This document shows, one piece after another, positions 6,856 to 15,653 of a stretch of DNA of 42,393 nucleotides (positions are counted from its first letter, which is position 1; the number at the start of each line of letters is the position of its first letter). A program made the position numbers and the translations under genes. The notes under the pieces were generated by a model. The model ran no database searches. It saw only the letters and a list, made by a program, of their open reading frames with translations, and had not been told where the DNA came from. This DNA comes from Pseudomonadota bacterium (GTDB taxonomy: Bacteria > Pseudomonadota > Alphaproteobacteria > Puniceispirillales > Marisalimonadaceae): the NCBI GenBank assembly GCA_027625145.1, contig JAQBXK010000016.1, forward strand, positions 1 through 42,393, given 5' to 3'.

Positions 6856-8187
6856 CTAATTCCCAGCTATAGTCATTCCATCAATTAACAAAGTTGGACT
6901 TGTTACAGAATAAGATAAATCTACATCATTAGCTGGCTTAAGGGTCATAAACATTTCTTTTAAATTACCAGCAATGGTTGCTTCACTAATAGGGTGAGAT
7001 AATTGACCATCTTTAATCCAAAACCCACTTGCACCCCTGCTATAGTCACCTGTTACCATTGAGACGCTGCTACCAATCATATCTGTAACGTAGAACCCAT
7101 CGCTAATTTCTTTAATAAGATTTTCAGGTGTTATCTCTCCAGGCATAATCATAAAATTACTTGTGCCATTAGCGTTGCCAGTTGGTTGCATATTTAATTG
7201 TTTTGCAGAAGCTAGATCTAAAAACCATCCTTGCAAAATACCGTCTTTAATCATTAAACGCTTTGAACAACCCAAACCTTCTCTATCAAACAATCTTGAA
7301 CCTAATCCACGTTTTAGAAATGGATCATCAATCATATTGATAGATGAATTGGCTATCTGTTTATTCATCATATCTTTTAAAAAGCTAGTTTTTCTTGCTA
7401 TCGCAGACCCGTGTATAGCAGAAGAAATATGACCTGAAATTGATCTGGCGACACGCGGGCCAAATACTACAGGATACTTTCCTGTAACGGGCTTTATAGC
7501 TCCTATTCTAGCCAGAGTGTTTTCTGCTGCCTTTAGACCAATTAATTCTGGTTTTTTAAGATCTTCTCCATATACTTTTGATGAATAATCATAGTCTCTT
7601 TCCATTTTTCCATCTTTTTCAGCTATGACAACAACTGAAACACTATGATTAGATCTTTTGCTATGTCCAAAAAATCCATTAGAAGTCATCAAAAGAGTAT
7701 CGCCTTCTCCCCAAGATGCATCTGCGCCATCACTGTTTGTTATTCCTTTTACACTTAAAGCCGCATCTTCAACTTCTGACGCTCTACTTCTGATTAAATC
7801 GATATCAGGTTCATTTTGATCGTAACTATCAATGGAAACAGAATTATTTAAAGGAAATAACTCAAGAGTTTTGCGGTCGGCAATCATTCCAAATTCATCT
7901 TTTGGAGTTATTTTAGCCATTTCAATGGCTCTTGTTGCAACTTCTTTTAGAGCGGCTTCTGAGTTTTCATTAGTTGATACAGATGCAATTTTATTACCAA
8001 TGAATACTCTTAAACCAGTATCAAAATCTTCATATCTTTCTATAGTTTCATCTTTACCTAATCTTCTAGTAAGAGATACTCCTCTGCTTCTAGATAAAAT
8101 ACAGTCAGCATCTGTCGCTCCTTGAGATATAGCTGTATCTATAAGAAGGTTCATAATGTCTTTATCATTAAGCTTTGAAGTTGCCAT
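6856..8187 (-). CDS. pmbA: PmbA/TldE, subunit of TldD/TldE metalloprotease
   Basis: The 443-residue TldE/PmbA partner of the TldD protease, a cytosolic peptide-trimming complex known in E. coli for microcin B17 maturation and CcdA turnover. Family features are the N-terminal GVSLTRRLGKDETIE block, RVFIGNKIASVSTNE, a central VVFGPRVARSISGHIS stretch, and the C-terminal GDYSRGASGFWI and LLIDGMTIAGN blocks. The HExxxH metal site of TldD is absent, as expected for this subunit. A good AGGAG ribosome site precedes the ATG. The catalytic partner tldD lies about 11 kb away at 18901-20349. It is divergent from argC. Confidence 0.93.
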   Translation of the reverse strand: MATSKLNDKDIMNLLIDTAISQGATDADCILSRSRGVSLTRRLGKDETIERYEDFDTGLRVFIGNKIASVSTNENSEAALKEVATRAIEMAKITPKDEFGMIADRKTLELFPLNNSVSIDSYDQNEPDIDLIRSRASEVEDAALSVKGITNSDGADASWGEGDTLLMTSNGFFGHSKRSNHSVSVVVIAEKDGKMERDYDYSSKVYGEDLKKPELIGLKAAENTLARIGAIKPVTGKYPVVFGPRVARSISGHISSAIHGSAIARKTSFLKDMMNKQIANSSINMIDDPFLKRGLGSRLFDREGLGCSKRLMIKDGILQGWFLDLASAKQLNMQPTGNANGTSNFMIMPGEITPENLIKEISDGFYVTDMIGSSVSMVTGDYSRGASGFWIKDGQLSHPISEATIAGNLKEMFMTLKPANDVDLSYSVTSPTLLIDGMTIAGN

Positions 8188-8299: not shown

Positions 8300-9247
8300 A
8301 TGAAAAAAAATGTTTTTATAGATGGTGAAGTCGGAACAACAGGACTTCAAGTTTATGATAGGTTATCTAAACATCCAAATGTAAATATTCTAAAGATTGA
8401 TCAATCTAGAAGAAAAGAAACCTCATATAAAAAAGAGATGTTAAAGGCATCAGATGTGACTTTTCTTTGTTTGCCAGACAATATTGCTATTGAGACGGTT
8501 GCAATTGCCGACGAGCTAGGAGAAAACTCTCCTCTAATTATTGATGCATCAACGGCTCATCGAACTAATGATGGTTGGTCTTATGGTTTGCCTGAATTAG
8601 GAGATAATTATAAAAAAAGTATTATAGGTTCCAAAAGAATTGCAGTTCCAGGATGCTTTGCCACTGGATCAAACGTAATTTTAAAACCACTTATTGAAAA
8701 TAAAATACTTCCTAAAAACACTCCTTTAGTCATTAATGCAGTTAGTGGTTACTCTGGAGGAGGAAAAGATTTAATCGGCTATTTTAATAATGAATTACAT
8801 GAACCTTTTTTTAATTATGGGCTTCAATTAAATCATAAACATTTGCCAGAAATTATATTTCATAACGGATTGGACGTAACCCCAATATTTAATCCATCAG
8901 TTGGTGATTTTATCCAAGGAATGTCGGTTTGTATTCCAATTCATTTTCAATGGTTATCACAATCAATTAAGACTTCTGATATTCAAATGTTAATAAAAGA
9001 TTTTTATCTTAATTCTGAATTTATTAAAGTTCTGGAAAAAAATGAGGCTTTATCTGAAAAAGGATATCTAAGGCCTGATAATCTAATAGACACTAATTTT
9101 TTAGATATTAGTGTTTTTGGTAACGATCAAAATAATCAAGCGGTTATAATTGCCAGATTAGATAATTTGGGTAAGGGGGCTTCAGGTGCTGCGATACAAT
9201 GTATGAATATTGCATTAGGATATGATGAATCATTAGGTTTAAAATAA
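8300..9247 (+). CDS. argC: N-acetyl-gamma-glutamyl-phosphate reductase, short (type 2) form
   Basis: NADPH-dependent reductase of arginine synthesis, converting N-acetyl-glutamyl phosphate to the semialdehyde. The N-terminal cofactor loop is FIDGEVGTTGLQ (6-17) and the catalytic Cys119 lies in VPGCFATG; LNHKHLPEI carries the likely catalytic His. GKGASGAAIQCMNIALG at the C-terminus is characteristic. At 315 residues and with the GEVGTTG loop it belongs to the shorter type 2 branch seen in many Alphaproteobacteria. It starts about 110 bases from divergent pmbA and is followed 13 bases later by an unfamiliar gene, probably in the same transcript. No other arg genes are in the window. Confidence 0.93.
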   Translation: MKKNVFIDGEVGTTGLQVYDRLSKHPNVNILKIDQSRRKETSYKKEMLKASDVTFLCLPDNIAIETVAIADELGENSPLIIDASTAHRTNDGWSYGLPELGDNYKKSIIGSKRIAVPGCFATGSNVILKPLIENKILPKNTPLVINAVSGYSGGGKDLIGYFNNELHEPFFNYGLQLNHKHLPEIIFHNGLDVTPIFNPSVGDFIQGMSVCIPIHFQWLSQSIKTSDIQMLIKDFYLNSEFIKVLEKNEALSEKGYLRPDNLIDTNFLDISVFGNDQNNQAVIIARLDNLGKGASGAAIQCMNIALGYDESLGLK

Positions 9248-9260
9248 ATTTGATTTGATA

Positions 9261-10037
9261 ATGAAAAAAGATAAAAAAATAACTAAATCAAATTTTTTCC
9301 CTGATTATTCCTATTTTGAAAGAGCAATTAATTATCCATATCCAACTCCAGATTATGCCTATTCTTTTTTTAAAGGTAAATTCATTCAAGGTATTCATCT
9401 AGATCTAGAAAAGAGAATTCCTATTTTATCAGTTGGTTCAAATAGAGCGCCAATGCAGCTTGAAAGAAAGTTTTCTATTAATCAGGATCTCTGTGTTACC
9501 CCTGCAATTTTATATAACTCAGATATTGTTTATGCAGCATCAATTTCAGCTTATGGTTCAATTCCAGCAACTCAATGGCCAAGCATAAATACGGAGGTTG
9601 AATTGAATGTCTTATGGTTAACGCAAGAACAATTAAATGTAATGCATTTAACTGAAGCTGTAGGAATTGCATATAATTTTGTTAAAATGAACTCAGGGAC
9701 AGTCAAAATTAAAGACTTTCAATTTAATGGAGATGTTTATGGTTATGTTGCCCTAGCAGGATCATTTCCTTTTAAGGCAAACAAGCCATATAGATTATCA
9801 GAAATTAATGGAATAAATGTTAATCTAAAATCAATTAATGAGGAAGCGGCTTTGGTCTTCTTAATGAATTTTTTAGAGCCTAAACAAAGTAATTTGTCTA
9901 AATGGATTAAAAAAGTCATTGACGATAAAGATTATCGTTTAAATTTACATACACTATTGAAATCACAAGCTATTAAACCAAATAACCCTAATTGGGAAAA
10001 CATAGAGGTTGTTATGAATGGTGCAATGATTTTATAA
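9261..10037 (+). CDS. Uncharacterised protein with gamma-glutamylcyclotransferase-like features
   Basis: A 258-residue soluble protein that I cannot assign with confidence. It has a loop VGSNRAPMQLERKF (58-71) resembling the YGSN...QM..R loop of gamma-glutamylcyclotransferase (GGCT/AIG2-like) proteins, then YGSIPAT (98-104), a hydrophobic strand, and WLTQEQLNVMHLTEA (119-133), resembling the GGCT region that ends in the catalytic Glu (here Glu132). The order and spacing match that fold, but the match is by eye. It follows argC by 13 bases, so a link to glutamate or glutathione chemistry is possible but inferred. An in-frame TTG at 9255 is an alternative start; the ATG at 9261 is preferred although no strong ribosome site is visible. 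Confidence 0.7.
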   Translation: MKKDKKITKSNFFPDYSYFERAINYPYPTPDYAYSFFKGKFIQGIHLDLEKRIPILSVGSNRAPMQLERKFSINQDLCVTPAILYNSDIVYAASISAYGSIPATQWPSINTEVELNVLWLTQEQLNVMHLTEAVGIAYNFVKMNSGTVKIKDFQFNGDVYGYVALAGSFPFKANKPYRLSEINGINVNLKSINEEAALVFLMNFLEPKQSNLSKWIKKVIDDKDYRLNLHTLLKSQAIKPNNPNWENIEVVMNGAMIL

Positions 10038-10245: not shown

Positions 10246-10437
10246 AAAAAATCTCTTTTTTAGTTAACATATTAAATTAATTTATGTAGTAAAATCAATA
10301 AGATAATAATTTTATATATAAAAAATATAAAAAATATTAACTATAGCTATTGATTAACTTCAATTTCCATTTTAATCTCCTAAAAAAGTACTAATAAAAT
10401 CTAGAAAACATGACAAGTATAAGGGGAGTTATTTATA
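10246..10437 (+). promoter_or_regulatory. Divergent control region of proteorhodopsin and small membrane protein
   Basis: About 190 bases with no ORF, one of the longest gaps in the window. It is very AT-rich with runs such as TATATATAAAAAATATAAAAAATATT. A weak sigma-70-like pair may be TTGATT at 10350-10355 and TTTAAT at 10371-10376, with a short spacer of 15, so this promoter call is tentative. Just before the rhodopsin ATG is an unusually strong Shine-Dalgarno for this genome, AAGGGGAG at 10421-10428, about 9 bases from the start, which fits high expression. I see no long operator palindrome. Confidence 0.4.
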
Positions 10438-11214
10438 ATGTCTTTAAATATAATATTAAAATATGCTATACCGGCAACGATAATTTCGTCATTACCACTA
10501 ATAGCTAATGCGGCTGACCATGCTGGAAGTAATTTAAAAGCAGATGATTTCGTTGGAATTAGTTTTTGGTTTATTTCAATGGCATTAGTTGCTGCTACTG
10601 CTTTTTTCTTTTTAGAAACACAAAGAGTATCAGCTAAATGGAAAACATCACTAACAGTTTCTGGTTTAGTTACTTTGGTGGCTGCAGTTCATTACTTTTA
10701 CATGAGAGATGTATGGGTAGAAACCGGAACATCACCGACAGTATTTAGATATATTGATTGGTTAATTACAGTTCCATTATTAATGATTGAATTTTATATC
10801 ATTTTAAGAGCGTGTACTAAGGTTTCTGGTGGAGTTTTCTGGAAATTAATGATTGGTTCTTTAGTAATGTTGGTAGGTGGATATCTTGGAGAAGCAGGAT
10901 ACATCAACACAACATTAGGTTTTGTAATCGGAATGGTTGGTTGGATCTATATCTTATATGAAATCTTTGCTGGTGAAGCAAGTAAGGCTAGTGAAGAAGC
11001 TCCAGAATCAGTTCGTTCAGCATTTAATACAATGCGATGGATTGTAACTATTGGTTGGGCTATATACCCGATTGGATACTTTATGGGTTATATGACAGAT
11101 GGAGTAGATGCAGCTTCATTGAACATAATTTATAACTTAGCTGACGTTTTAAATAAAATTGCCTTTGGTGTAATTATTTGGAATGTTGCAGTAACAGAAT
11201 CTGAAGCTAAATAA
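10438..11214 (+). CDS. Proteorhodopsin, predicted green-tuned light-driven proton pump
   Basis: A 258-residue seven-helix retinal protein. After a signal peptide likely cut after SLPLIANA (about residue 25), key residues match proteorhodopsin: RYIDWLITVPLL contains Asp107 (Schiff-base counterion and proton acceptor) and Thr111; Glu118 is the cytoplasmic proton donor; His85 is the conserved His paired with the counterion; Lys240 in ADVLNKIAFG binds retinal. The D-T-E triad indicates outward proton pumping. The spectral switch position (105 in the reference protein) is Leu115, predicting green rather than blue absorption. A strong Shine-Dalgarno precedes the ATG and an intrinsic terminator follows. 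The protein would sit in the cytoplasmic membrane and add to the proton gradient used by ATP synthase. Confidence 0.97.
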   Translation: MSLNIILKYAIPATIISSLPLIANAADHAGSNLKADDFVGISFWFISMALVAATAFFFLETQRVSAKWKTSLTVSGLVTLVAAVHYFYMRDVWVETGTSPTVFRYIDWLITVPLLMIEFYIILRACTKVSGGVFWKLMIGSLVMLVGGYLGEAGYINTTLGFVIGMVGWIYILYEIFAGEASKASEEAPESVRSAFNTMRWIVTIGWAIYPIGYFMGYMTDGVDAASLNIIYNLADVLNKIAFGVIIWNVAVTESEAK

Positions 11215-11233
11215 TTAAATAAAATTTATTCTT

Positions 11234-11270
11234 AAAGCCTGCAGGTAAGTCTGCAGGCTTTTTTTATTTT
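11234..11270 (+). terminator. Strong intrinsic terminator after proteorhodopsin
   Basis: A perfect 11-base stem, AAAGCCTGCAG (11234-11244) against CTGCAGGCTTT (11251-11261), with a 6-base loop GTAAGT, runs into seven T (11259-11265), then A and TTTT. It starts about 20 bases after the rhodopsin stop and is the only GC-containing classic terminator I see in the window. It lies between the rhodopsin and crtI on the same strand, so it should insulate the retinal genes from, or ration their share of, rhodopsin transcription. Confidence 0.93.
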
Positions 11271-11286
11271 AAAATTAATTCTAAAT

Positions 11287-12807
11287 ATGGTTTATATTGG
11301 ATTACAAATGGAAAACTTATCTAAAAATAAAAAAGATAATGTAAATAGTTTAGTAATAGGTGGTGGTTTTGGAGGTATAGCCTCAGCACTTAGGCTTAAA
11401 GCATTAGGTCATGATGTGACTTTAATAGAGCGATTAGAAGCTCTAGGAGGTAGAGCTCAAGTTTTTAATAGAAACGGGTTTAAACATGATGCTGGACCTA
11501 CAGTCATTACTGCCCCTTTTCTGTTTGATGAGCTTTTCGAGCTTTTTAATGAAAAAAGAGAAGATTTTGTTCAGTTTAAGACATTAGAACCTTGGTATAG
11601 ATTTCATTTTCATAATGGTGAGACTTTTGATTATTCATCAACAGTAGAAAAAACAAAGAAAGAAATGGAAAAATTTTCCAGAGAAGATGCAAAGAATTAT
11701 GATAATTTTCTAAAAGCTTCAAAAGATATATTTGATATAGGTTTTACTAAATTAGCTGACAAACCATTCGTATCTTTCTTATTTATGTTAAAACAAATCC
11801 CAGCTTTATTAAAATTAAAAAGTTATCTGACTGTTGCTCAATTAGTTAATAAACACATAAAAAATACTAATTTAAGAGCGGCATTTTCAATCCATCCTTT
11901 ATTGGTTGGAGGTAACCCATTTTCTACAACTTCCATTTATGCTTTAATTCATTTTCTTGAAAGAAACTGGGGTGTTTATTTTAGTATGGGTGGAACAGGT
12001 AAATTAGTTCAAGAGTTAACAAAATTATTAGAGCGTTCTGGAGTAAATATTATATACAATACTGATATTGTGTCATGTTATGAAAAGAATAACAAAATTC
12101 AAAAAATTGAAAGCTCAAATGGCCAATTTTTCTATCCAGATAACGTTATTTTTAATGGTGATCCACCTACGTTTTATAATGAAATACTTAAGTCTAAAAA
12201 CAGAATTAAAAAAAGAAAAAAATTTCTTCCAGAGAAATTAACAACCTATTCAATGGGTATGTTTGTATTGTTTTTTGGAACAAAAAAAACTTATCCAAAA
12301 ATTGCTCATCATTCTATTTGGTTAGGAAAGAGATTTAAAAGTTTGTTGAAAGATATTTTTGATAACAAAATTTTAAGTGATGATTTCTCTTTATATATAC
12401 ATAGGCCAACAGCTACTGACCAAAGTTTTGCTCCAAAAGGTTGTGATAGTTTTTATGTTCTTTGTCCTGTTCCAAATCTTTTAGGTAAAGTTGATTGGGA
12501 TGTAGAATCTATTCCATTAAAAAATAGAATAATAGAAGCATTGGATAAATCAATATTACCTAAGTTAAAAGAAACTATCTGTGAAGAATTTTGGATGTCT
12601 CCTGTAGACTTTAAAAATAATTATCGTTCTACTCATGGAGCAGGTTTCTCTATAGCTCCAATTTTTTCTCAATCAGCTTGGTTTAGATATCATAATAAAG
12701 ATCCTCATATTGATAATTTATATTTTGCAGCAGCTGGAGCGCATCCAGGCGCCGGAGTTCCTGGTGTATTATCTTCTGCAAAAATAGTTGAAAGTTTGAT
12801 TAAATAA
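11287..12807 (+). CDS. crtI: Phytoene desaturase
   Basis: FAD-dependent carotenoid desaturase that turns phytoene into lycopene. The N-terminal dinucleotide motif VIGGGFGGIASALRL (about 23-37) is followed by LIERLEALGGRA and DAGPTVITAP; the C-terminal block YFAAAGAHPGAGVPGVLSSAK is diagnostic of CrtI. It is 506 residues from the first ATG. A second in-frame ATG at 11308 (MENLSKNK) gives a length closer to the family norm; neither has a clear Shine-Dalgarno. The first ATG lies only about 17 bases after the terminator T-tract, leaving little room for a promoter. It is the first gene of crtI-crtB-crtY-blh. Confidence 0.95.
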   Translation: MVYIGLQMENLSKNKKDNVNSLVIGGGFGGIASALRLKALGHDVTLIERLEALGGRAQVFNRNGFKHDAGPTVITAPFLFDELFELFNEKREDFVQFKTLEPWYRFHFHNGETFDYSSTVEKTKKEMEKFSREDAKNYDNFLKASKDIFDIGFTKLADKPFVSFLFMLKQIPALLKLKSYLTVAQLVNKHIKNTNLRAAFSIHPLLVGGNPFSTTSIYALIHFLERNWGVYFSMGGTGKLVQELTKLLERSGVNIIYNTDIVSCYEKNNKIQKIESSNGQFFYPDNVIFNGDPPTFYNEILKSKNRIKKRKKFLPEKLTTYSMGMFVLFFGTKKTYPKIAHHSIWLGKRFKSLLKDIFDNKILSDDFSLYIHRPTATDQSFAPKGCDSFYVLCPVPNLLGKVDWDVESIPLKNRIIEALDKSILPKLKETICEEFWMSPVDFKNNYRSTHGAGFSIAPIFSQSAWFRYHNKDPHIDNLYFAAAGAHPGAGVPGVLSSAKIVESLIK

Positions 12808-12819
12808 AAGTATTAGCAT

Positions 12820-13731
12820 ATGAACAATCAAATAGATGATGCCAAATTAATTTTAAAAAAAAATGGTAGAAGTTTTTTTTGGGCAAGTAAATTTTTACCT
12901 TCTTTGTATGTTGAGAGAGCTTCAGAGCTTTATAAATTTTGTAGAATTTTAGACGATATAGCTGATAACGGTAAAAAATCTTCAATAGACCTTTTAAATA
13001 AATATAGAAATAACCTTTTAAAAAACAATATTAAAGACTTGATTAAAGAAGATAATAAATCATTTAGTTATCCTGAATATTTTAATTCTCACTCAAAAAA
13101 AGCTACTTTAAGCCTTCTTGACGGCTTAATTTCGGATCAAAATATTGTTTTACTGGAAAAAGAAATAGATTTAATTCGTTATTCTTATCAAGTAGCTGGC
13201 ACAGTAGGTGTTATGATGTGTGATGCATTAGAATGTCATAATGAAAAAGCTAAATTGTTTGCTGTTGATTTAGGTATAGCTATGCAATTAACAAATATTG
13301 CCAGAGATGTTTTAGAGGATGCTAAAATGGGTAGAAGATATTTGCCTAGTTCTTGGGTAAACGGAATTTCTCCAAAAGAAATAGTAATGGCATCAAAATC
13401 TAAAAATAAGAAAGTTATTAATGAAATATCTTTGGGAATAGAGAAGTTACTTTTAATCGCTGAAAGATACTATATTAGCGGATCTAGTGGATTTGTATAT
13501 TTACCCATTAAAACTCGTTTTTCAATTTCAATCGCCTCTAGTGTTTACAGAGAAATTGGAGAGCAATTAAAAAGAAAAAACTTTAACTGGTATGATGGTA
13601 GACAAATAACAACTTCAGCCACTAAATTTAAAGTTAGTATAAAAAAGATAATCATAGAATTACTTTCTATTCAAAAAATAGAAACAAAACATAAATCTGA
13701 ATTACATAGATTTATCAAGGATATGCTTTAA
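12820..13731 (+). CDS. crtB: Phytoene synthase
   Basis: Condenses two GGPP to phytoene, the first committed carotenoid step. The two Asp-rich substrate-binding motifs of trans-isoprenyl synthases are present: DDIAD (45-49) and NIARDVLEDAKMGRRYLP (159-176, Asp163 and Asp167). The length of 303 residues is normal. It starts 12 bases after the crtI stop. Its TAA stop is directly followed by the GTG start of crtY with no gap, so translation is probably coupled. Its GGPP supply must come from a crtE/ispA-type gene outside the window. Confidence 0.95.
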   Translation: MNNQIDDAKLILKKNGRSFFWASKFLPSLYVERASELYKFCRILDDIADNGKKSSIDLLNKYRNNLLKNNIKDLIKEDNKSFSYPEYFNSHSKKATLSLLDGLISDQNIVLLEKEIDLIRYSYQVAGTVGVMMCDALECHNEKAKLFAVDLGIAMQLTNIARDVLEDAKMGRRYLPSSWVNGISPKEIVMASKSKNKKVINEISLGIEKLLLIAERYYISGSSGFVYLPIKTRFSISIASSVYREIGEQLKRKNFNWYDGRQITTSATKFKVSIKKIIIELLSIQKIETKHKSELHRFIKDML

Positions 13732-14832
13732 GTGAAAAAAAAACAGATTAATATTATAGGAGCAGGGTGTGCTGGATTATCTTTAGCAAGATTTAGTAAT
13801 GAACTAAAGGAATACCAATTTAATGTTTTTTCAGAAAAAAAAATAGAAAAAACTAAAGATCATTACTGGGGTTTTTGGAAAAATTCATTTACAGAAGATG
13901 CATATAATAATGCAAATTGCACTTGGTCTAAATGGTCTATAATAACTAATGAAGCTCATGAAGTGTTGACGGCTAAAAAACATCCTTATTGTATAATTAA
14001 AAGAAAAAAATGGCTATCTTATTGTCAAAAAAAAGCTATCAAAGGGAAAACAAATTTTTTTGATGAAAATATATCAGAGGTTAATAATCTACTTTTAACA
14101 TCGAATAAAAAACATATTGCTGGCCATCATACTTTTGATAGCAGACCTCCTCCAATCCCATCAAATACTTTATTGCAACACTTTGAAGGTTACGTTATTA
14201 CGTCTAAAAATAATATTTTTAATCCTGAAATTGTTAGATTAATGGATTTTAGATGTGATCAATCAAAAGGTATTCACTTTATTTATTTACTACCTTTGAG
14301 TAAAAAATCTGCTTTAGTTGAGTCTACTCTATTTTCTAAAAATATAGAAAGTTCAGATTTTTACTTTAATTCAATAAAAATTTATCTAAAAAAATATTAT
14401 GATCTAACTAAATTTTCAATGAAAGATTTTGAAAAAGGAATTATTCCTATGAATGATCTGTCTATGAAGTCTATAGGTAGATATAATATTGGAATGAGGG
14501 GTGGAGCGATTAGACCATCTTCAGGATATGCATTCATTTATATTCAGAAACAAATTAATAAAATTATAAAAAATTTAATTTTTAAAGAGAAGATTAATAC
14601 AAAAGTTCATAAAAATTTTGATTTATTTATGGATAGAATTTTTTTAATGGTTTTAGATTTATATCCTGAGAAAGCTCCTAAAATTTTTCTTAAATTAGCT
14701 CAAGCAATTAACGGAGATGAAATGGCTATGTTTATGTCTGGAGAGTTCAAAGCATCCATATGGTTTAAAATCATAATGTCTATGCCAAAAATATGTTTTA
14801 TTAAAGCTTTTTACAAAGTTATTATACGGTAA
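13732..14832 (+). CDS. crtY: Lycopene beta-cyclase
   Basis: Flavoprotein that forms the two beta-ionone rings of beta-carotene. The N-terminal FAD loop NIIGAGCAGLSLA (about 8-20) is followed by family blocks FDSRPP (about 135-140), LLQHFEGYVI, MDFR, IYLLPLS, EKGIIPM and GMRGGAIRPSSGYAF. The start is GTG, immediately after the crtB stop, and the first codons contain a run of nine A. The end overlaps the blh start (TAATG, one base). At 366 residues it is within the CrtY range. It is strikingly AT- and Lys/Asn/Ile-rich: in the 60 bases at 14581-14640 I count 10 G+C. Confidence 0.92.
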   Translation: MKKKQINIIGAGCAGLSLARFSNELKEYQFNVFSEKKIEKTKDHYWGFWKNSFTEDAYNNANCTWSKWSIITNEAHEVLTAKKHPYCIIKRKKWLSYCQKKAIKGKTNFFDENISEVNNLLLTSNKKHIAGHHTFDSRPPPIPSNTLLQHFEGYVITSKNNIFNPEIVRLMDFRCDQSKGIHFIYLLPLSKKSALVESTLFSKNIESSDFYFNSIKIYLKKYYDLTKFSMKDFEKGIIPMNDLSMKSIGRYNIGMRGGAIRPSSGYAFIYIQKQINKIIKNLIFKEKINTKVHKNFDLFMDRIFLMVLDLYPEKAPKIFLKLAQAINGDEMAMFMSGEFKASIWFKIIMSMPKICFIKAFYKVIIR

Positions 14833-15653
14833 TGGAAATGTCAGTTTTAAAGTTGTGGGATTATTGGGCTTTAATATCAATTATATTTATTGGAATTCCT
14901 CATGGAGCACTTGATGGAGCAATTTCTATTACATTAGGGTATTCAAAAAAACTAAAACTTCAGTTAGCTTTTATTTCAATTTATATTTTTATTGCCTTTG
15001 TTATAATAATGTTTTGGATATATTTCCCTGTTATTGCATTAACACTTTTCTTGTTTTTAAGTGTTTTTCATTTTGGACTAGGTGACTTAGTTTGGAAAAA
15101 TAGTAAATTTTATTTATTAAAAGGATACTTTCATGGAGGTTTATTTGTATTCGGAATAATATTTCTTAATACTTCTGAAGTAGATATTATTTTTAAAATA
15201 TTATCAGGAGAAAACCTATCATTATTATGGTATGCTTTAGGTATAGGTGCTTTTATTTGGGTTCTCTCATGTTTTTTAATTGTTTTTTTTCAAAAAAGTA
15301 TAGTTTTAACTAAACAATATATTGGGCTAATTTGTATAATTTTATCAATAATTATTTTGCTTCCGCCATTGCCAGCTTTTGCTTTATATTTTTGTTTAAT
15401 TCACAGTTGGAATCATGTCTCTCGAATATATCCAACCTTAATTAGTTATATGAAAAAAAGAAAAGCAATTTTATTAATGATTAGTTTTTCAATTACTAGT
15501 TGGATCATGGGTTTAATTGGTTATTACTTTATATTAGAAACAGATGGGTTTTCAAATTCAATTTTAAAGATAACTTTTATTGGCATTGCATCTTTGACTG
15601 TGCCACATATGATTTTAGTAGATGGATTTTTTAGGCCAAAATTTAAAATTTAA
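14832..15653 (+). CDS. blh: Beta-carotene 15,15'-dioxygenase, Blh family
   Basis: Membrane-embedded iron oxygenase that splits beta-carotene into two retinal molecules, giving the rhodopsin its chromophore. It is a 273-residue protein with multiple hydrophobic helices. The iron-binding histidines of the family are matched by His24 (IPHGALDGA), His80 (VFHFGLGD), His191 and His195 (IHSWNHVSR); a further VPHMILVDGFF block at the C-terminus is typical. It starts by a one-base overlap with crtY and is the last gene of the retinal operon. It ends 13 bases from the convergent ubiA gene. Confidence 0.94.
   Translation: MEMSVLKLWDYWALISIIFIGIPHGALDGAISITLGYSKKLKLQLAFISIYIFIAFVIIMFWIYFPVIALTLFLFLSVFHFGLGDLVWKNSKFYLLKGYFHGGLFVFGIIFLNTSEVDIIFKILSGENLSLLWYALGIGAFIWVLSCFLIVFFQKSIVLTKQYIGLICIILSIIILLPPLPAFALYFCLIHSWNHVSRIYPTLISYMKKRKAILLMISFSITSWIMGLIGYYFILETDGFSNSILKITFIGIASLTVPHMILVDGFFRPKFKI

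Follow-up and report, generated by a model that had tools for sequence, protein, structure and literature searches.

The window, a stretch of 42,393 nucleotides, makes up contig 34 in a draft genome of 2.27 Mb; related genomes carry the label SAR116-cluster alphaproteobacteria. The window holds, on the same strand and in this order, a proteorhodopsin (PR) gene, a hairpin, and the genes crtI, crtB, crtY, and blh (Table 1). The common orientation of PR and the crtI–crtB–crtY–blh genes had already been described in the initial annotation, and profile matches uphold the gene identities assigned there. PR, crtI, crtB, crtY, and blh form a PR photosystem gene cluster from which crtE, a usual but not required member, is missing. 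No crtE match was obtained in the fetched loci of the window's family, where the gene is also absent from the PR–crtI junction (11214–11308), while in most other SAR116 families (L049–L143) it sits between PR and crtI. Two polyprenyl synthase genes, one octaprenyl-diphosphate-synthase-like and one farnesyl-diphosphate-synthase-like, are located on other contigs (G000:C47 and G000:C29).

Table 1. Features of the PR/retinal gene cluster, in window coordinates.
Feature	Position	Strand	Basis
Putative PR promoter TTGATT-N17-TAATCT	10350–10378	+	Consensus and conservation
Leader with PR ribosome-binding site TAAGGGGAG	10422–10437	+	Sequence
Proteorhodopsin (PR) gene	10438–11214	+	PF01036, E = 3.8e-50; best solved-structure matches are proteorhodopsins
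Terminator stem-loop	11234–11261	+	Sequence, fold, covariation
T-tract TTTTTTTATTTT	11259–11270	+	Sequence; T-rich tail in 45/45 family loci
Spacer before crtI, with upstream ATG 11287	11271–11307	+	Comparison with relatives
crtI, phytoene desaturase	11308–12807 (ORF opens at 11287)	+	TIGR02734, E = 3.6e-153; start by comparison
crtB, phytoene synthase	12820–13731	+	Profile match
crtY, lycopene cyclase	13732–14832	+	PF05834
blh	14832–15653	+	TIGR03753 above cut-off; PF15461

Across the family, the putative PR promoter element aligns in a TTGNNT-N17-TATTNT-like form, the −10 of the window being a weak match. In genus g2, identity upstream of PR, leader included, reaches 94%, compared with 72% at four-fold sites, and an SD match lies ahead of PR in 95 of 101 loci. 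Judged by this conservation, PR has a putative promoter-like element and leader of its own. Another promoter candidate for PR, ATGACA-N18-TATAAT at 10410–10439, shares bases with the start codon of the gene and was discarded on that ground.

A strong hairpin separates PR from the retinal genes

The stem begins 19 nt downstream of the PR stop codon, which ends at 11214. Its 5′ arm AAAGCCTGCAG (11234–11244) and 3′ arm CTGCAGGCTTT (11251–11261) pair perfectly over 11 bp, or 12 bp if one G-U pair is counted, include six GC pairs, and enclose the 6-nt loop GTAAGT (11245–11250). The T-run comprises seven T (11259–11265), three of which are paired, with ATTTT following next. The 11-base perfect stem and seven-T tract that had been proposed between PR and the crt genes are confirmed. 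RNA folding of 11214–11308 yields −22.1 kcal/mol compared with −11.9 ± 2.8 kcal/mol for shuffled sequences (z = −3.6), with 0 of 200 shuffles folding as well; the stem-loop by itself reaches −18.0 kcal/mol. The hairpin is a real structure, beyond chance. No Rfam family was matched between positions 10000 and 16000 of the window. As a GC-containing stem-loop placed after a gene, with an adjoining T-tract and compensatory changes among relatives, the element has the properties of an intrinsic (Rho-independent) terminator.

The genome background for terminators comprised 20 stretches and the window, 348 kb in all. A strong intrinsic terminator occurs there in 3 of 192 same-strand gene pairs (gap ≤250 nt), and the one between PR and crtI ranks fifth among 17 strong terminators. 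With a fold far better than that of shuffles and so few gene pairs holding a comparable terminator, the hairpin is both real in structure and unusual in position. Two further strong terminators between same-strand neighbours were seen in L183 (~8424–8557) and L189 (~8089–8155); the genome is terminator-poor.

The hairpin is conserved by compensatory change

Of 151 related genomes, 109 contain PR, and the comparison drew on 100 loci taken from SAR116 relatives. In the window's family, the hairpin with its T-tract occurs in 45 of 45 PR–crtI loci (the window counted), the stem starting 13–25 nt past the PR stop. The stem sequence varies (GCCTGCAG, GCCTACAG, GCCTGTAG, AACCAGCCTG, and GGCCAGCCC) and the pairing is kept. 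Both sides have changed in 7 of 12 pairs, 98% of cells in the stem alignment are paired (0 of 500 shuffles), and 30 cells show a change on both sides versus 7 in shuffles; these covariation and conservation counts come from related genomes, some of them near duplicates, and do not equal independent events. The check proposed in the initial annotation, a hairpin retained in homologous loci while its sequence drifts, is clearly borne out. On the evidence of these alignments, the hairpin is kept by selection inside the same-strand PR/retinal cluster. It lies between the functionally linked genes PR and crtI and at none of the other three junctions, as hairpin terminators were found at 0 of 125 crtI–crtB, crtB–crtY, and crtY–blh junctions of the family.

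Outside the family, where the order is mostly PR–hairpin–crtE, 55 of 56 loci carry the hairpin, L138 being the sole exception. Nine of the 56 were missed by the script on account of larger loops or interrupted stems, and their hairpins were recognised by eye. The hairpin stays with PR in front of crtI, in front of crtE, and where neither of them follows. Most PR loci sampled from other Alphaproteobacteria have the same kind of hairpin whatever the neighbour, as do several Gammaproteobacteria, and a similar layout extends to distant Proteobacteria, for example TTTTTAGGAGG ahead of crtE in L210. In many higher-GC relatives from several genera, the stem is kept with little or no T-tract. One SAR116 family (L133, L134, L137, L141, and L142) has PR and the terminator without crt genes downstream; in the two loci read, L133 and L142, opposite-strand genes follow PR, in agreement with the published absence of the retinal cluster from one low-GC group.

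A leaky terminator as the probable source of unequal transcript levels

The upstream ATG 11287 was rejected as the crtI start because most relatives have no in-frame ATG at this position and their starts match ATG 11308. By this comparison, crtI probably starts at ATG 11308, which lies ~42 nt from the seven-T run instead of the ~17 bases given previously. An SD precedes crtI in 5 of 45 family loci, an absence that is weak as special evidence because only ~40% of the genes in this genome have an SD and ~60% do not.

On balance, we favour the reading that the PR/retinal operon contains a conserved internal terminator and that opsin transcripts far outnumber retinal-gene transcripts by way of leaky read-through. 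PR would be transcribed from its own promoter (~10350–10378), and most polymerases would stop at ~11259–11270, yielding an abundant, 3′-protected, one-gene PR mRNA. A minority would read through and feed crtI–crtB–crtY–blh, such that one promoter would govern both parts, yet opsin transcripts would greatly exceed those of the retinal enzymes. The purpose may be stoichiometric, PR being needed in bulk and the catalytic enzymes supplying retinal for many opsins. What can be read from the DNA is the hairpin, its compensatory conservation, its confinement to the PR end, and a spacer that in many relatives is unconstrained or too short.

The spacer between hairpin and crtI bears most directly on the source of crt transcripts. 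In genus g2, its identity is 0.68, compared with 0.72 at four-fold sites and 0.94 upstream of PR (189 pairs), and no conserved promoter was found in it. The distance from stem to ATG is at most 36 nt in 27 of 45 family loci, and in L048, where it is 7 nt, the crtI ATG abuts the T-tract. In genus g17, the SD and ATG of crtE follow directly after the T-tract (stem-to-ATG 17–20 nt), and in the distant L210 an SD lies immediately past it; consequently, a transcript that includes this SD could start no later than within the T-tract. A spacer that drifts like four-fold sites and is often too short for a promoter and leader makes a leaky terminator with read-through more likely than a promoter dedicated to crtI. 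Since the g2 spacer is nearly neutral and often short, and since a promoter upstream of the stem must still pass it, read-through would account for crt mRNA most economically. Between the options raised in the initial annotation, the leaky valve is preferred, given the lack of a conserved promoter in the g2 spacer and of room in some relatives; transcripts from a promoter inside the opsin gene would likewise need to cross the hairpin. A promoter just past the T-tract is less likely, and the g3 spacer shows some conservation.

A hairpin that fully ends the PR mRNA, with crtI–crtB–crtY–blh expressed from their own promoter as a near-leaderless crtI mRNA, is the main rival and in our estimate rather unlikely. 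For such a promoter, the −35 region would fall within the hairpin or close to it, and the AT-rich spacer would supply a −10-like element. A long stem with 7–9 T could terminate so efficiently that read-through becomes negligible, and the 37 nt past the T-tract in the window could fit a short, weak promoter. They hold the −10-like words TATGGT (11286–11291) and TATATT (11293–11298), and a 9-of-12 consensus match spans 11269–11298, but promoter-like matches in the region are not above shuffles (60 vs 63). Similarly, a TATGGTTA box stands ahead of crtI in many g2 genomes, yet g2 spacers drift like four-fold sites. Spacer conservation exceeds that of four-fold sites in genus g3 (0.87 vs 0.76) and between the window and one close relative (97% vs 92%, a single pair that cannot decide), and it is mixed, mostly near neutral, in higher-GC genera. 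The few SDs before crtI are what a leaderless gene could show, but the majority of genes in this genome lack one regardless, and both the short stem-to-ATG distances (L048 above all) and the SDs directly past the T-tract in g17 and L210 argue against a promoter at this place. Right after the T-tract, a weak, weakly conserved, near-leaderless promoter is possible.

We regard it as improbable that PR and crt genes are joined on a single mRNA in which the hairpin mainly blocks 3′–5′ decay of the PR part after the crt part has been cleaved or decayed. Segmental mRNA stability of this type has a precedent in the Rhodobacter puf operon, among genes for light harvesting and the reaction centre (PMC7509114, PMC11354728), and a stem without T-tract exists in several higher-GC genera and in L200 and L201 of another class. 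However, the T-tract found throughout the window's family goes beyond what a pure decay block needs, and stem and T-tract are also kept where crt genes are missing. A puf-type arrangement, with the hairpin inside one message and no T-tract terminator, was found neither in the window nor in its family and occurs only in some other relatives. That hairpins stand behind PR without crt neighbours, and in most other Alphaproteobacteria sampled next to any neighbour, might also point to inherited baggage, a PR gene that travelled together with its terminator, the hairpin having no role in the PR/crt ratio; the compensatory changes indicate ongoing selection within the PR–crtI cluster, and we consider this reading very improbable.

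The leaky terminator need not apply in every lineage. In several higher-GC relatives the T-tract is missing, and termination cannot be the full explanation for them; by analogy with puf, the hairpin may terminate weakly at most in these relatives and instead protect the 3′ end of the PR mRNA. Either route, termination or 3′-end protection, would leave PR mRNA in excess over crt mRNA.

Relation to known operons and to expression in the ocean

The rplL–rpoB attenuator of E. coli is an internal operon terminator that sets unequal gene levels. In Methanococcus maripaludis, internal-operon termination sites likewise place a stop signal between same-strand, linked genes with the upstream product in excess (PMC10450193). 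In contrast to both, the SAR116 element, a bacterial hairpin with T-tract between opsin and chromophore genes, is known from sequence alone. The hairpin of the Rhodobacter capsulatus puf operon resembles it in lying between the gene of an abundant light-energy protein and partners in lower demand, but acts via mRNA decay, whereas in the window's family the PR hairpin is followed by a complete T-tract (Klug et al, 1987, 1990, via PMC11354728 and PMC7509114). The PR–crtE–crtI–crtB–crtY–blh cluster described for SAR116 (PMC8547437) and Vibrio campbellii (PMC3380642) has the same genes on one strand, the window's family differing by the absence of crtE from the junction. The literature searched for a PR-operon terminator does not mention the hairpin, and a search by term in the V. 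campbellii PR and Puniceispirillum literature returned no mapping of the PR–crt junction. As a device, an internal terminator or intercistronic hairpin is already familiar; its near-universal placement at the boundary of opsin and retinal genes seems not to have been reported in the literature searched.

Few genes of surface-ocean bacteria, SAR116 included, are transcribed as highly as PR (PMC5120137). The OM43 isolate NB0046 carries PR, crtE, crtI, crtB, crtY, and blh as NB46_00176 to 00171, and in replete medium their transcripts number 16,208, 522, 304, 106, 139, and 72 per 1,000 cells, respectively; the PR:crtE ratio ranges from 10 to 58 across regimes (PMC5120137 and its Table 1). These counts illustrate an imbalance in a member of a different class whose genes are ordered alike, do not tell its cause, and are compared here by gene order alone. 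Among nine candidate genomes screened for an OM43 locus at which to compare the hairpin, none exceeded the TIGR03128 (methylotrophy marker) cut-off. Tentatively, and with somewhat less than even confidence, we suggest that this "opsin hairpin" may be a general element of proteobacterial rhodopsin photosystem operons that sets the opsin/retinal-enzyme ratio, acting as a terminator in low-GC lineages and as a decay-blocking hairpin in others, its strength tuned by gain or loss of the T-tract with the gene order unchanged. As to how cells balance opsin against chromophore, a conserved cis element at this boundary offers a simple, testable answer. The hairpin probably allows this SAR116 bacterium to produce its light pump in large excess over the enzymes that make the pigment, and marine opsin transcript counts need not mirror the capacity for retinal synthesis.

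Variation upstream of PR

In relatives L045–L105, an inverted repeat, for example TCTAGCAgttGCTAGA, precedes AACATGACAAGTATAAGGGGAG in the region upstream of PR. The window (10385–10437) has this repeat reduced to TCTAGA, with apparently ~10 nt lost relative to L044. The PR of L048 (G016) is 85% identical to that of the window, compared with ~69% for other PR of that genus, and its leader is of the local type, a pattern that suggests recombination inside the PR gene.
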